From Streptomyces adustus (lineage in GTDB: Bacteria > Actinomycetota > Actinomycetes > Streptomycetales > Streptomycetaceae), in contig NZ_VJZD01000007.1 of NCBI RefSeq assembly GCF_009377175.1, positions 1 through 64,000 of the forward strand: a DNA stretch of 64,000 nucleotides, in the 5' to 3' direction. The notes below the pieces were generated by a model that was not told the origin of the DNA, made no database searches, and was given only the letters and a program-made list of their open reading frames with translations. Made by a program: the position numbers and the translations under genes. Of this stretch, positions 46,558-49,581 are shown one piece after another; positions within the stretch are counted from its first letter, which is position 1, and each line of letters begins with the position of its first letter.

Positions 46558-47138
46558 GCAGCTACCTTTCTCACCGTCGGGACCGTCTTCGCCGGGGTTC
46601 CCGTGCGGATGGCGGTTCCCGGAGGGACAACGCCGTCCGCCCGGCGCATGATTCCACCAGCCTCGGCGACCGGACACCACGACGGTTGTCGTCGGTGATC
46701 CGGTCATCCGGCGCAGGTACCACTGGCCGCGGGTCTCGCCCTTGATCGACCGGCGCTCGAAGACCTGCACGCCCTCGGGGAAGGGCCCGCACATGATCAC
46801 CGAGTGGGACCAGATGGTTGCTGACCTTCCGGTCGGGGATCGCGGGTCACCTTGTGGCGGCGGATGCGGCTGATCGTCGTCCGGGAAAGACCGACCCGGA
46901 CCCCGCCGGCGAGGAGCTCACCGCGTCGATCGAGAAGAGCCGGATGCGACGTGACGGGATGGCCTGGGAGAAGAAGGACGAGGTACGCGTCGCCGTACCG
47001 GTCGCCGATCCCCTGCGGGAGGGGCGGCTGTAGGACCCGGAGCGCAGGTCGTCTGCGTTTCCGGGACCGTTTCCGCAAAGTTTCCCGTGCGTGATGCGCG
47101 TCACGTACGGATCTTCGGCCAGGCAGTACGCTGAGCAC
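46558..47138. other. Long intergenic region
   Basis: About 580 bp between the regulator and a leader-peptide operon. Frames here (for example 46818-47033 plus) have some coding bias but no family match or ribosome site. The distal end carries the Crp-like palindrome at 47091-47104 and the promoter for the operon. Confidence 0.4.
47091..47104 (+). promoter_or_regulatory. Crp-like palindrome upstream of leader-peptide operon
   Basis: GTGATGCGCGTCAC fits the streptomycete Crp pattern GTG-N6-GNCAC and is a near palindrome. It lies 35 bp before the leader peptide start; TACGCT at 47127-47132 could be the -10. Confidence 0.4.
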
Positions 47139-47213
47139 ATGCTTGCGCTCGTTCGACGCCGCCACGTGGACTACGTCCGCGTCACCAGCATGGGCTGTCG
47201 ACGCTTCCTCTGA
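47139..47213 (+). CDS. Cysteine/sulfur-type leader peptide (24 aa)
   Basis: A 24-codon frame reading MLALVRRRHVDYVRV then TSMGCRRFL and stop. It has the pattern of actinobacterial 'putative leader peptides', RR/x-H-V/I-D-L/Y-x-R-V followed by a near-terminal Cys-Arg, which precede sulfur- and cysteine-related genes and are thought to sense cysteine by ribosome behaviour at the Cys codon. The TGC codon is the 20th of 24. It is 147 bp upstream of the oxygenase gene, the spacer being pyrimidine-rich. Too short for automated gene calling. Confidence 0.8.
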   Translation: MLALVRRRHVDYVRVTSMGCRRFL

Positions 47214-47360
47214 GCCGTCCGGCCTCTCTGCGCGGTCTCGCGCTTCTGCGTTTTCTGCGGTTCACAGCCGCCTGCGCTTTCTCCTCTCCGTCCACCCGGC
47301 ACCCCTGCGCCAGCTCACCCATGGCGGGCGCGCGGGACCCCGTACACCCGCGGATGCACC
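47214..47360 (+). promoter_or_regulatory. Pyrimidine-rich spacer after the leader peptide
   Basis: The RNA between leader stop and oxygenase start is C/U-rich with few G (for example TTCTGCGTTTTCTGCGGTTC and GCTTTCTCCTCTCCGTCCAC). Such stretches can load Rho when not covered by ribosomes, which would fit a leader-peptide-controlled premature termination. No strong intrinsic hairpin is visible. Confidence 0.4.
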
Positions 47361-48398
47361 ATGACGAACGTGACCCGGACGACTGCGACGCCGTCGTACC
47401 GGCAATTGCCGATCATCGATCTCTCCGCCGCCGACCGAGGGCCGCAGGCCCGGGCGCTGTTGCACAGCCACTTGCGCAGTGCCGCCCACGACGTGGGCTT
47501 CTTCCAGCTCGTGGGGCATGGGGTGAGCGAGGAGGAGACCGAGGGCCTGCTCTCCGCCATGCGGCGGTTCTTCGCCCTGACGGAGGCCGAGCGGCTCGCG
47601 ATCGACAATGTGAACTCGCCGCACTTCCGGGGGTACACAAGGACTGGTGACGAGCGGACCGGCGGGCGGCAGGACTGGCGCGATCAGCTCGACATCGGGG
47701 CCGAGCGGCCCGCGCGGGTGCCGAGGCCCGGCGAACCGGCGTACTGGTGGCTGGAGGGGCCCAATCAGTGGCCGGCCGGGCTTCCCGAGCTGCGGGTGGC
47801 CGCCCTGCGGTGGATGGAGCGGCTCAGTGATGTCGCCGAGAAGCTGCTGCACGAACTGCTCGCCTCGATCGGGGCGCCCGCCGACTTCTACGACTCGGTC
47901 TTCGGGGAGCGGGCACATCCGCATCTGAAGCTGGTGCGGTATCCGGGGAATGCGGGGAACGGGGCCGAACAGGGGGTGGGAGCCCACAAGGACTACGGAT
48001 TCCTGACCTTGCTGCTTCAGGACCAGGTGGGTGGGCTTCAGGTGCAGCGGGAGGACGGGCTGTTCCACGATGTGCCGCCGCTGCCCGGTGCCTTCGTCGT
48101 GAATCTCGGGGAGTTGCTGGAGGTGGCCACCAACGGATATCTCGTCGCCACCAATCACCGGGTGGTGTCGCCGCCCAGCGCCGTCGAGCGGTTCTCCGTG
48201 CCGTTCTTCTACAACCCTCGGCTGGACGCGCGCGTGGAGCCGCTGCCCTTCCCGCACGCCTCCGCCGCCCCCGGCGTGACCGACGATCCGGCCAACCCTC
48301 TGTTCGCCGAGTACGGGTTCAACGAGCTGAAGGGCAAGCTGCGGGCGCATCCGCTTGTCGCGGAGCGGCATCACGCGGAGCTGCTCAGCCCCGCGTGA
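47361..48398 (+). CDS. Isopenicillin N synthase-like Fe(II)/2-oxoglutarate oxygenase
   Basis: A 345-residue non-heme iron dioxygenase of the IPNS/DOXC type. The N-terminal DIOX_N domain begins LPIIDLSAADRG and contains GFFQLVGHGVSEEETEGLL (about residues 46-64). The jelly-roll core has the iron-binding HKDYGFLTLL (His/Asp at about 209/211), NLGELLEVATNGYLVATNHRV with the second His (about 266), and RFSVPFFYNP with the Arg-x-Ser that contacts the co-substrate (about 275-284). Genuine IPNS genes occur with ACV synthetase, absent here. The upstream Cys-type leader peptide links it to sulfur or thiol supply, but its reaction is unknown. Confidence 0.9.
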   Translation: MTNVTRTTATPSYRQLPIIDLSAADRGPQARALLHSHLRSAAHDVGFFQLVGHGVSEEETEGLLSAMRRFFALTEAERLAIDNVNSPHFRGYTRTGDERTGGRQDWRDQLDIGAERPARVPRPGEPAYWWLEGPNQWPAGLPELRVAALRWMERLSDVAEKLLHELLASIGAPADFYDSVFGERAHPHLKLVRYPGNAGNGAEQGVGAHKDYGFLTLLLQDQVGGLQVQREDGLFHDVPPLPGAFVVNLGELLEVATNGYLVATNHRVVSPPSAVERFSVPFFYNPRLDARVEPLPFPHASAAPGVTDDPANPLFAEYGFNELKGKLRAHPLVAERHHAELLSPA

Positions 48399-48498
48399 TG
48401 CCGCTCGTCCTCACCTGGTGGGCGACGTCCTGAGCGAAACCCCGGTGCGCGATGTCCCCTTGACCTGCTGCTTGGGCTGAAGCCCGTGGACTCTGGCC

Positions 48499-48547
48499 TT
48501 CTGCGCCGGATGCCGTGCCGCTACGCGGTACGGCATCCGGCGCAGAA
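48499..48547. terminator. Very long-stem bidirectional terminator
   Basis: Arms 48499-48516 (TTCTGCGCCGGATGCCGT) and 48530-48547 (ACGGCATCCGGCGCAGAA) pair perfectly over 18 bp; with inner pairs the stem reaches about 22 bp around a 5-nt loop. It separates the convergent oxygenase and thioredoxin operons. Confidence 0.9.
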
Positions 48548-48571
48548 TCCGTGGCTTCCTTCAACGCCCTC

Positions 48572-49015
48572 TCAGACTGCCGCTGCCAGCTCCACTGCCG
48601 ACACCACGTCGGCCCGGGTCGGCGCGCCGGAGGCGCGGCGAACCACACGACCGGTGCGGTCGAGGACGAGTACCGTCGGTGTCCGCATGACTTCGAAGCG
48701 GCGGACCAGTTCGAGCCGTGTCTCGGCGTCGATCTCCACGTGGCGTACACCGGGAGTTCCGTCAGCCACACCGGCCAGCAGACGGCGGGTACCGGGGCAG
48801 GTGGCACAGAGGGCCGTCGAGAACTGCACCAGCGTCGCCCGCTCGCCGAGCGTCACGCCCAACTCGCCGGAGGACAAGCGCAGTACGTCGCCTTGGGCCG
48901 TGTCGCGCAGCCTGCCGTCGCGTCGGACCCGTACCAGCCCGAAGACGGTTGCGGCCACCAGGACGACGGCGGCCACGAGAAGCCCCGTCGGATCGCTCAC
49001 GGCCGCCTCACCCAT
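48572..49015 (-). CDS. Membrane-anchored thioredoxin-like protein
   Basis: A 147-residue protein: one N-terminal membrane helix (about residues 8-28, TGLLVAAVVLVAATVFGLV), then a thioredoxin fold with the active-site-like FSTALCATCPGTRRLLAG (CATC, about residues 71-74) in place of WCGPC, and the cis-proline region in MRTPTVLVLD (about 111-120). It probably reduces or oxidises disulfides at the membrane. It overlaps the DUF4395 gene upstream by 8 bp (an in-frame GTG at 49000 is an alternative start). The pair is preceded by a cysteine-type leader peptide, fitting thiol-linked control. Confidence 0.9.
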   Translation of the reverse strand: MGEAAVSDPTGLLVAAVVLVAATVFGLVRVRRDGRLRDTAQGDVLRLSSGELGVTLGERATLVQFSTALCATCPGTRRLLAGVADGTPGVRHVEIDAETRLELVRRFEVMRTPTVLVLDRTGRVVRRASGAPTRADVVSAVELAAAV

Positions 49016-49457
49016 GTCCCAGTCGGGTGCGGCTACGGACCGTGAGCAGGTAGAGCTCGCAGCCCAGGCAGTAGCCGAAGGCGGCATTCAGGAAGGCCGC
49101 GGTGAGCGCCGCCGCACTCGCCGCGATGCCGAGCCAGGTCGCGCCGGAGAGGTAACCGACCATCCCGATGGCGGCGAAGGCCAGGCCGACGGCCTGTGCG
49201 AACCGTGGCGGCCGTGCGTCCTCGAACTCCTGCGGCGGCCCGAGACGAGGACGCACCAGGCGGCTGTAGAGCCAGCCGTACGGGGACCAGCGCAGCCCCA
49301 GGATGGCACCGAGGGCGAAGACGACGGCCTGCGCCGCGAGCAGGGTGCCGCTGCCGGTGGCCAGTACCAGGAGGAGGACGAGGCTGGTGAGTACGGCGGC
49401 GAAGCGTTGGCCACGCGGGTCGACTCTGACAGGTGTTCCAGGCGTGCGGTCGGGCAT
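49008..49457 (-). CDS. DUF4395 family membrane protein
   Basis: A 149-residue protein with four hydrophobic segments (about residues 20-37, 41-55, 92-110, 114-130) and the DUF4395 features FAAVLTSLVLLLVLATGS, the loop RPRLGPPQEFEDARPPRFAQAVG, and a C-terminal FGYCLGCELYLL with a CxxC pair (about 130-133). DUF4395 proteins are regularly found beside thioredoxin-like or sulfurtransferase genes. Here the gene overlaps the thioredoxin gene, and a leader peptide lies 49 bp upstream. A function in sulfur or redox handling at the membrane is inferred, not shown. Confidence 0.9.
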   Translation of the reverse strand: MPDRTPGTPVRVDPRGQRFAAVLTSLVLLLVLATGSGTLLAAQAVVFALGAILGLRWSPYGWLYSRLVRPRLGPPQEFEDARPPRFAQAVGLAFAAIGMVGYLSGATWLGIAASAAALTAAFLNAAFGYCLGCELYLLTVRSRTRLGHG

Positions 49458-49506
49458 GACGAGCTCCGGGATCTTTCGAATGGGGACGATGTGAATCGGC
49501 GCGTGG

Positions 49507-49581
49507 TCAGCGACACGCGGCGGACCACACCCGGCCGAAGTCGATGTGGGCCCTGATCACCAGGCACGTCCCGGAGTGCAT
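49507..49581 (-). CDS. Cysteine/sulfur-type leader peptide (24 aa)
   Basis: A 24-codon frame reading MHSGTCLVIRAHIDFGRV then WSAACR and stop. It shares with the leader at 47139 the R-x-H-V/I-D-F/Y-x-R-V core and a terminal Cys-Arg, and has an additional Cys at position 6. It lies 49 bp before the DUF4395 gene in the same direction. A cysteine-responsive translation or attenuation control of the DUF4395-thioredoxin operon is likely. Confidence 0.85.
   Translation of the reverse strand: MHSGTCLVIRAHIDFGRVWSAACR

Follow-up and report, generated by a model that had tools for sequence, protein, structure and literature searches.

Two convergent operons in a 64,000-nucleotide stretch of Streptomyces adustus DNA (the window; contig NZ_VJZD01000007.1, positions 1 to 64,000) raise the question of what signal they answer to, as one carries an oxygenase gene, the other a DUF4395 and a thioredoxin gene, and both are headed by a frame of only 24 codons. 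Our results show that both short frames belong to the actinobacterial Cys type of leader peptide and that leaders of this kind follow a peptide-codon rule, in which an R-x-H-[VI]-D-[LFY]-x-R motif is followed, 11 residues past its His, by a UGU codon. This rule is the new element of the analysis, new as far as the literature search reaches. The elements concerned are as follows, the motif His being position 0.

47139..47213, plus strand: leader peptide 1, MLALVRRRHVDYVRVTSMGCRRFL; NF042936 match, E 1.6e-4 for the genome.
47163..47165, plus strand: motif His codon (position 0) of leader 1; His in 80/80 relatives' loci.
47196..47198, plus strand: TGT Cys codon at +11 of leader 1, the proposed sensor; TGT in 80/80 and 42/42 relatives' leaders.
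49507..49581, minus strand: leader peptide 2, MHSGTCLVIRAHIDFGRVWSAACR; NF042936 match, E 6.5e-4 for the genome.
49513..49515, minus strand: TGT Cys codon at +11 of leader 2.

An earlier note on this DNA had described both frames as Cys-type leaders with the core R-x-H-(V/I)-D-(F/Y)-x-R-V and a Cys-Arg near the end, and its description was accurate, including the distances of 147 bp from leader 1 to the oxygenase ATG (47361) and 49 bp from leader 2 to the DUF4395 start (49457, minus strand). The leader type was borne out by NCBIfam matches below the curated cut-offs: NF042936 (Ms4527A Cys-rich leader) matches leader 1 with 27.1 bits and leader 2 with 26.0 (cut-off 45), NF042934 (cis_reg_atten) matches leader 1 with 19.5 bits (cut-off 27), and neither leader reaches the cut-off of either family. 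The two are the third and fourth of 14 NF042936 matches in their own genome, where the NF042934 cut-off is passed by 10 other leaders, one of them only with neighbours in frame.

The rule was derived from a scan of the collected loci for the motif, with no condition on Cys; sites had to show a stop codon within 30 codons and to differ from one another over 42 nt. Of the 121 distinct sites, 118 have a Cys exactly 11 residues past the His, encoded by TGT in all 118, against 17 of 63 Cys codons at other offsets and a baseline of 73 in 953 from long frames of 80 loci (frames that may overlap) with a high GC content at third codon positions (GC3); at the other 13 positions of the motif words GC3 is 92%. 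As many as 62 distinct 14-residue words obey the +11 TGT rule. The distance is partly built in where loci came via a profile ending at that Cys, which by hit coordinates is the final position of NF042934; the oxygenase and flavin reductase loci are free of this bias, and nowhere is the choice of codon built in. The three non-conforming sites are L002 (the same place as L021), one in L243, and L253, which has GTT at +11, is probably no leader and was kept within the 121. TGT was found in 29/29 of the best-match NF042934 loci of the genus (30 loci, with L189, which lacks the motif at the expected place, left out) and in 24 of the 25 phylum-sample loci with the motif (27 loci; L252 and L262 did not meet the pattern and were left out). 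His-to-Cys is 11 in 80/80 oxygenase leaders, where Cys-to-stop spans 5 or 6 codons and the leader stop lies 44-243 nt from the protein match. From a distance that is constant to the Cys but not to the gene, we infer that the ribosome, rather than a hairpin, is involved. A fixed distance from residues to a codon is a feature of arrest peptides and is present here, with UGU as the presumed stall codon.

The same register extends beyond the genus. In 61 genus genomes there were 570 NF042934 matches at E <= 0.05 (3-17 per genome, weak ones counted), and in the phylum sample 15/198 genomes had matches at E <= 0.001, eight of them of this genus, five of family f3, one of f4 and one of f31, the last chance-like. 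The 30 loci listed from 40 genomes of a single genus in family f3 have poly-Cys leaders that may be mycobacterial by their look; these carry TGT at +11 in 30/30, at +13 in 27/30 and at +9 in 25/27, and TGC at +4 in 30/30 and at +10 in 27/29. The choice between TGT and TGC in these leaders (L305-L331, L240-L242) is position-dependent, +16 and +17 being TGC.

The link between leader and oxygenase is conserved, as the conservation check suggested in the earlier note showed for this pair. In named genomes the leader lies upstream of the oxygenase in 80/80 loci, a set made of the best 80 of 351 related loci and biased to close relatives (79 titled Streptomyces, one of these a metagenome-assembled genome, and one 'Actinobacteria bacterium'), and in 0/80 of the same loci on the opposite strand. 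The genus sample comprised 150 genomes including our own, 61 of which had an oxygenase match at E <= 1e-60 (64 matches in total); 62 of the 63 matches from other genomes had enough upstream DNA, L139 being left out with only 38 nt, and 42 of these 62 loci carry the leader. By identity of the oxygenase, it is present in 39/39 at 72% or more, in 3/17 at 63-70% and in 0/6 below 57%, and in a quickly built tree with 76 rows, 5 changes suffice for the leader label against a mean of 25.1 in shuffles. For 45 distinct oxygenase leader sequences the ratio of nonsynonymous to synonymous changes (pN/pS) comes to 0.15 in the leader frame and to 4.36 and 1.13 when the frame is shifted, and by this sequence measure selection works on the peptide of leader 1. 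Some codons are fixed at the base level as well (GTG at +1 and GTC at +6 in 80/80), and because of this an extra constraint on the RNA may act on the oxygenase leaders.

The own genome contributed 15 leader-like frames, 14 of them with TGT at +11; those left out were L010, L013, L014, L028 and L030-L036, weak and un-leader-like by eye, and L015, which is the same place as L026. The regulon was tallied over the 12 leaders beyond leaders 1 and 2 and L029. Clear sulfur genes follow four of them (CysO/CysM-like genes of the ThiS and PALP families, cysteine dioxygenase, SfnG and SsuA) and plausible ones follow another four (a nitrite/sulfite reductase, two NtaA/DmoA-type monooxygenases, one under cut-off, and a flavin reductase). 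The statement that such leaders precede sulfur genes therefore agrees with 8/12 own-genome cases, clear or plausible. L029 (C406:110-160) is a leader, RRYVDLRRQGTATC, with TGT, whose contig stops 94 bases past it; the gene divergent to it is presumably a BioY-type biotin transporter.

Two elements around leader 1 bear on how the oxygenase gene may be controlled.

47127..47132, plus strand: -10-like element TACGCT, 6 nt from the leader 1 ATG; possible leaderless-type promoter.
47214..47360, plus strand: spacer from leader 1 to the oxygenase; in relatives C-rich, G-poor and variable in length.

A TANNNT element that ends 4-9 positions upstream of the ATG is found in 79/80 named oxygenase leaders and in 0/80 in the control window; since such an element stands right before the ATG of leader 1, its mRNA probably starts at the start codon itself. 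In the 80 relatives, the first 60 nt beyond the leader's stop codon average 0.52 C and 0.21 G against 0.37 and 0.37 upstream, and C minus G exceeds 0.15 in 80/80 of these spacers against 12/80 upstream. The -10 element and the C-rich spacer fit leaderless transcription and leave room for Rho.

We consider it likely that both frames are cis-acting cysteine leaders in which a shortage of Cys-tRNA would halt the ribosome at a single UGU, with the nascent chain helping. The proposed unit consists of R-x-H-[VI]-D-[LFY]-x-R, UGU 11 residues past the His, the stop codon, the spacer and the controlled gene. With ample Cys-tRNA the ribosome would clear UGU and depart, leaving the gene low, either via Rho at the C-rich spacer or through poor access to the gene start. 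With Cys-tRNA short it would be held with UGU in the A site and the motif some 8-13 residues back in the exit tunnel, where the motif could strengthen or time the stall, and the stall would switch the gene on. A slower wobble decoding by the Cys tRNA may be what favours UGU. A wider claim, which we hold tentatively and somewhat on the side of doubt, is that these leaders form a class of nascent-chain-assisted sensors with a tunnel motif R-x-[HA]-[VI]-D-[LFY]-x-R and an invariant UGU 11 residues later, in which hunger for Cys-tRNA acts together with arrest, and that the class marks a sulfur-scavenging regulon, including a 2-oxoglutarate (2OG)-type oxygenase, in Streptomyces and at least one other actinobacterial family.

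A number of observations weigh against this reading. Because many of the leaders are homologous, they cannot be counted as independent trials. The leader of a GST-like gene, L021 (C5:7527-7580), has GGC at +11 and its sole Cys, a TGC, at +7, and a similar leader in L243 has a stop codon at +11; these RRHIDLxRVCSAI leaders (Cys at +7) are possibly a sub-class with a different sensor position. Among the oxygenase relatives, 20/62 loci of the genus sample have no leader, nor do any of 13 loci (52-73% identity) in a sister family of the order. Four of the 12 regulon genes are without a clear sulfur role (two family-5-type binding proteins, the GST-like gene and the one after L024, an open reading frame with no NCBIfam match which we take for DUF1416), and the best NCBIfam name for the regulon reductase is nitrite reductase, under cut-off. 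No clear -10 element is seen by eye at leader 2, and a C-rich composition does not prove Rho action. At the RNA level, RNAalifold over 80 oxygenase leader regions gave a weak fold only, there was no Rfam family match, and accessibility of the oxygenase start region was 0.54 with the leader free, 0.55 with it masked and 0.41 when shuffled (18 of 68 cases, with our own among them), the anchor for the oxygenases in the RNAalifold and accessibility tests being the codon (GGC) before TGT. Hiding of the start site at the oxygenase gains no support from this change from 0.54 to 0.55; masking raised start accessibility from 0.47 to 0.57 in 3 DUF4395 cases and from 0.48 to 0.61 in 5 flavin reductase cases, which is a hint only.

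One rival is plain codon-counting attenuation, in which the Cys codon alone counts and the peptide is kept by descent. It matches the view of poly-Cys leaders in the accessible part of the published work, and a slow codon would heighten the sensitivity of such a device. We nevertheless judge it unlikely, for the motif is kept at the amino-acid level despite synonymous change, and counting codons needs no fixed distance from motif to Cys, a distance that is kept across leaders of unrelated genes.

Two further explanations do without a sensing peptide. The conserved bases could form an RNA or DNA element, a pairing partner or an operator, within which the frame is incidental; the invariance of GTG at +1 and GTC at +6 in 80/80 oxygenase leaders would be expected of it, and in the oxygenase family the 9-21 nt before UGU show some excess pairing with the start region. 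This explanation is improbable given a pN/pS of 0.15 in the leader frame alone, the occurrence of Y, F or L at +3 with differing bases and the missing Rfam match; the UGU window itself showed no excess pairing with the start region in any of three leader families, covering 68 oxygenase (67 named and our own), 21 flavin reductase and 3 DUF4395 cases. That the 24-codon frames are open by chance is scarcely credible. Both do score below the NCBIfam curated cut-offs, yet the conservation of leader 1 in 80/80 named loci already refutes chance for that frame, and related leaders that obey the TGT rule precede the two nearest DUF4395 homologues.

The genes that the two leaders precede, and the repeat between them, are as follows.

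47361..48398, plus strand: 2OG-Fe(II)-type oxygenase (IPNS/EFE-like), 345 aa; Pfam DIOX_N and 2OG-FeII_Oxy, PDB sequence search.
48499..48547, strand-neutral: inverted repeat separating the convergent genes; may act as a terminator for both.
48572..49015, minus strand: thioredoxin-like protein with CATC; PF00085, E 4.3e-5, start picked by eye.
49008..49457, minus strand: DUF4395 protein with CLGC; PF14340, E 1.4e-46.

The two redox motifs named in the earlier note, CATC in the thioredoxin and a CxxC in DUF4395, are both present, as is the stem between the operons, given there as 22 bp and found here with arms of 23 nt that are 96% complementary and 3 nt apart; no U tract was seen in the bases read at this repeat. 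The note had further inferred that both operons answer to the same cysteine/thiol signal and that their products form a single redox or sulfur system. The first part is plausible. The second is not supported, nor is the conservation of leader, oxygenase and DUF4395/thioredoxin together: a DUF4395 or thioredoxin match was found beside none of 109 other oxygenase loci, for which the DNA covered on either side was up to 4 kb (80 loci) or up to 1.5 kb (29 loci), and the DUF4395 leader recurs in only 2/38 other loci.

The DUF4395 loci tell more about the company of the pair. With our own included, a leader precedes DUF4395 in 3/39 loci, each time with TGT. The count pattern demanded a Cys at +11; in the two other cases (L147 and L148, the nearest Streptomyces homologues, with R-R-V-V-D-L-C-R) the distance was judged by eye and the TGT is the informative part. 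A thioredoxin match lies next to DUF4395, upstream on the opposite strand, in 38/38 other loci, and in the other genomes of the genus (L149-L175) the two genes are divergent. In 21 of 29 other DUF4395 loci of the genus, a flavin reductase-type leader follows the thioredoxin gene; the next frame starts like the own-genome flavin reductase in 16 of these, and in the other 5 an overlapping frame was read. Given these flavin reductase-type leaders and the few leaders of its own, the DUF4395/thioredoxin pair keeps company with the regulon, and its own leader is recent or often lost. That the facing operons make up one redox or sulfur machine is very improbable. Their adjacency here, with a leader on both, and the thioredoxin beside DUF4395 in 38/38 other loci speak for it; against it stand the 0/109 oxygenase loci with a flanking match and the frequent position of DUF4395 and thioredoxin, elsewhere, beside the leader of a flavin reductase-like gene. 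The joint two-operon system was rejected on synteny, the facing arrangement not being found in the flanks covered for the 109 other oxygenase loci. Plausibly, a single cysteine-limitation regulon takes in both the oxygenase and, as a separate member, the DUF4395/thioredoxin pair.

By sequence, the solved structures nearest to the oxygenase are 9ovh (3.9e-54; named ethylene/succinate-forming enzyme) and 6jyv (3.1e-47), and IPNS is not the closest relative, with a best match of only about 5e-10. The His-Asp-His and Arg-x-Ser residues of Fe(II)/2OG enzymes (HDHRS) are present in 122/122 leader-bearing relatives and in 32/33 leaderless ones, the remaining one being unaligned there. The protein has 0 Cys and 3 Met in 345 aa, and the 122 leader-bearing relatives have 4 Cys in 41,516 residues. 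This scarcity is shared by leaderless oxygenases (0 in 4,280 residues for 13 of the sister family and 8 in 6,450 for 20 of the genus), a further point that tells against our reading, and depletion of Cys was dropped as proof of sulfur economy since leaderless relatives are about equally Cys-poor. The combined share of Cys and Met is 0.9% or less in 1.6% of 258 comparison frames, and the low Cys/Met of the oxygenase and of regulon proteins fits sulfur economy. Three regulon proteins (L012, L017 and L018) are strikingly poor in Cys and Met, L018 with 0 and 0 in 428 aa. The leaders suggest a tie between a poorly understood oxygenase and sulfur supply, and the enzyme would most likely oxidise an organosulfur compound or some other substrate of use when sulfur is limiting.

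Cysteine-dependent attenuation is not new to actinobacteria, and was reportedly described in mycobacteria by Canestrari et al. in 2020, as later papers cite it. Conserved Cys-rich upstream open reading frames (uORFs) had been described in mycobacteria in 2015, with ribosome occupancy at the cysA2 locus (PMC4633059, in the portion available). Like the uORFs presented there, the leaders described here are short frames heading sulfur operons, with a near-terminal Cys and, for leader 1, a probable leaderless start. Unlike them, they often have a single Cys where the uORFs have a run, and their targets include an oxygenase and a DUF4395/thioredoxin pair; a fixed register with an invariant UGU is not described in that portion, although motif and +11 UGU also occur in the family f3 poly-Cys leaders. 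Frames with Cys codons before cys operons were described by Seliverstov et al. (2005; PMC1262725, likewise an excerpt), who found no terminator for them and weakly suggested Rho. Those leaders, unlike ours, carry their Cys codons in runs and come from Mycobacterium, Propionibacterium and Bifidobacterium, and the excerpt describes no Streptomyces cys leader and no peptide motif. The available part of a re-annotation of S. lividans (PMC8079986) names eight leaders, none for cysteine. Its Table 4 gives a 'metL' leader before metNIQ that ends in CMCRRMCAF, with three Cys; this leader may answer to cysteine and not to methionine. In the titles and abstract openings of the literature searched, which did not include Canestrari et al. 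2020, there is no mention of the fixed distance or the invariant UGU. That the arrangement is undescribed, as had been suggested, can therefore hold at most for the oxygenase as a target, the leader type being known.

In the sources available, cysteine attenuation in actinobacteria has so far been described by contiguous Cys codons. A fixed distance from peptide to codon, together with an invariant rare codon, turns this into the precise question of whether the nascent chain is involved. The rule picks up single-Cys leaders below annotation cut-offs and yields a listing, from sequence alone, of candidate sulfur-limitation genes, here the oxygenase family and the DUF4395/thioredoxin pair. In arrest peptides of the TnaC/SecM type, key residues lie at a set distance from the stall codon. 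The leaders described here would resemble them in holding their key residues in a fixed register, and would differ from them in that the stall codon is a hungry Cys codon.

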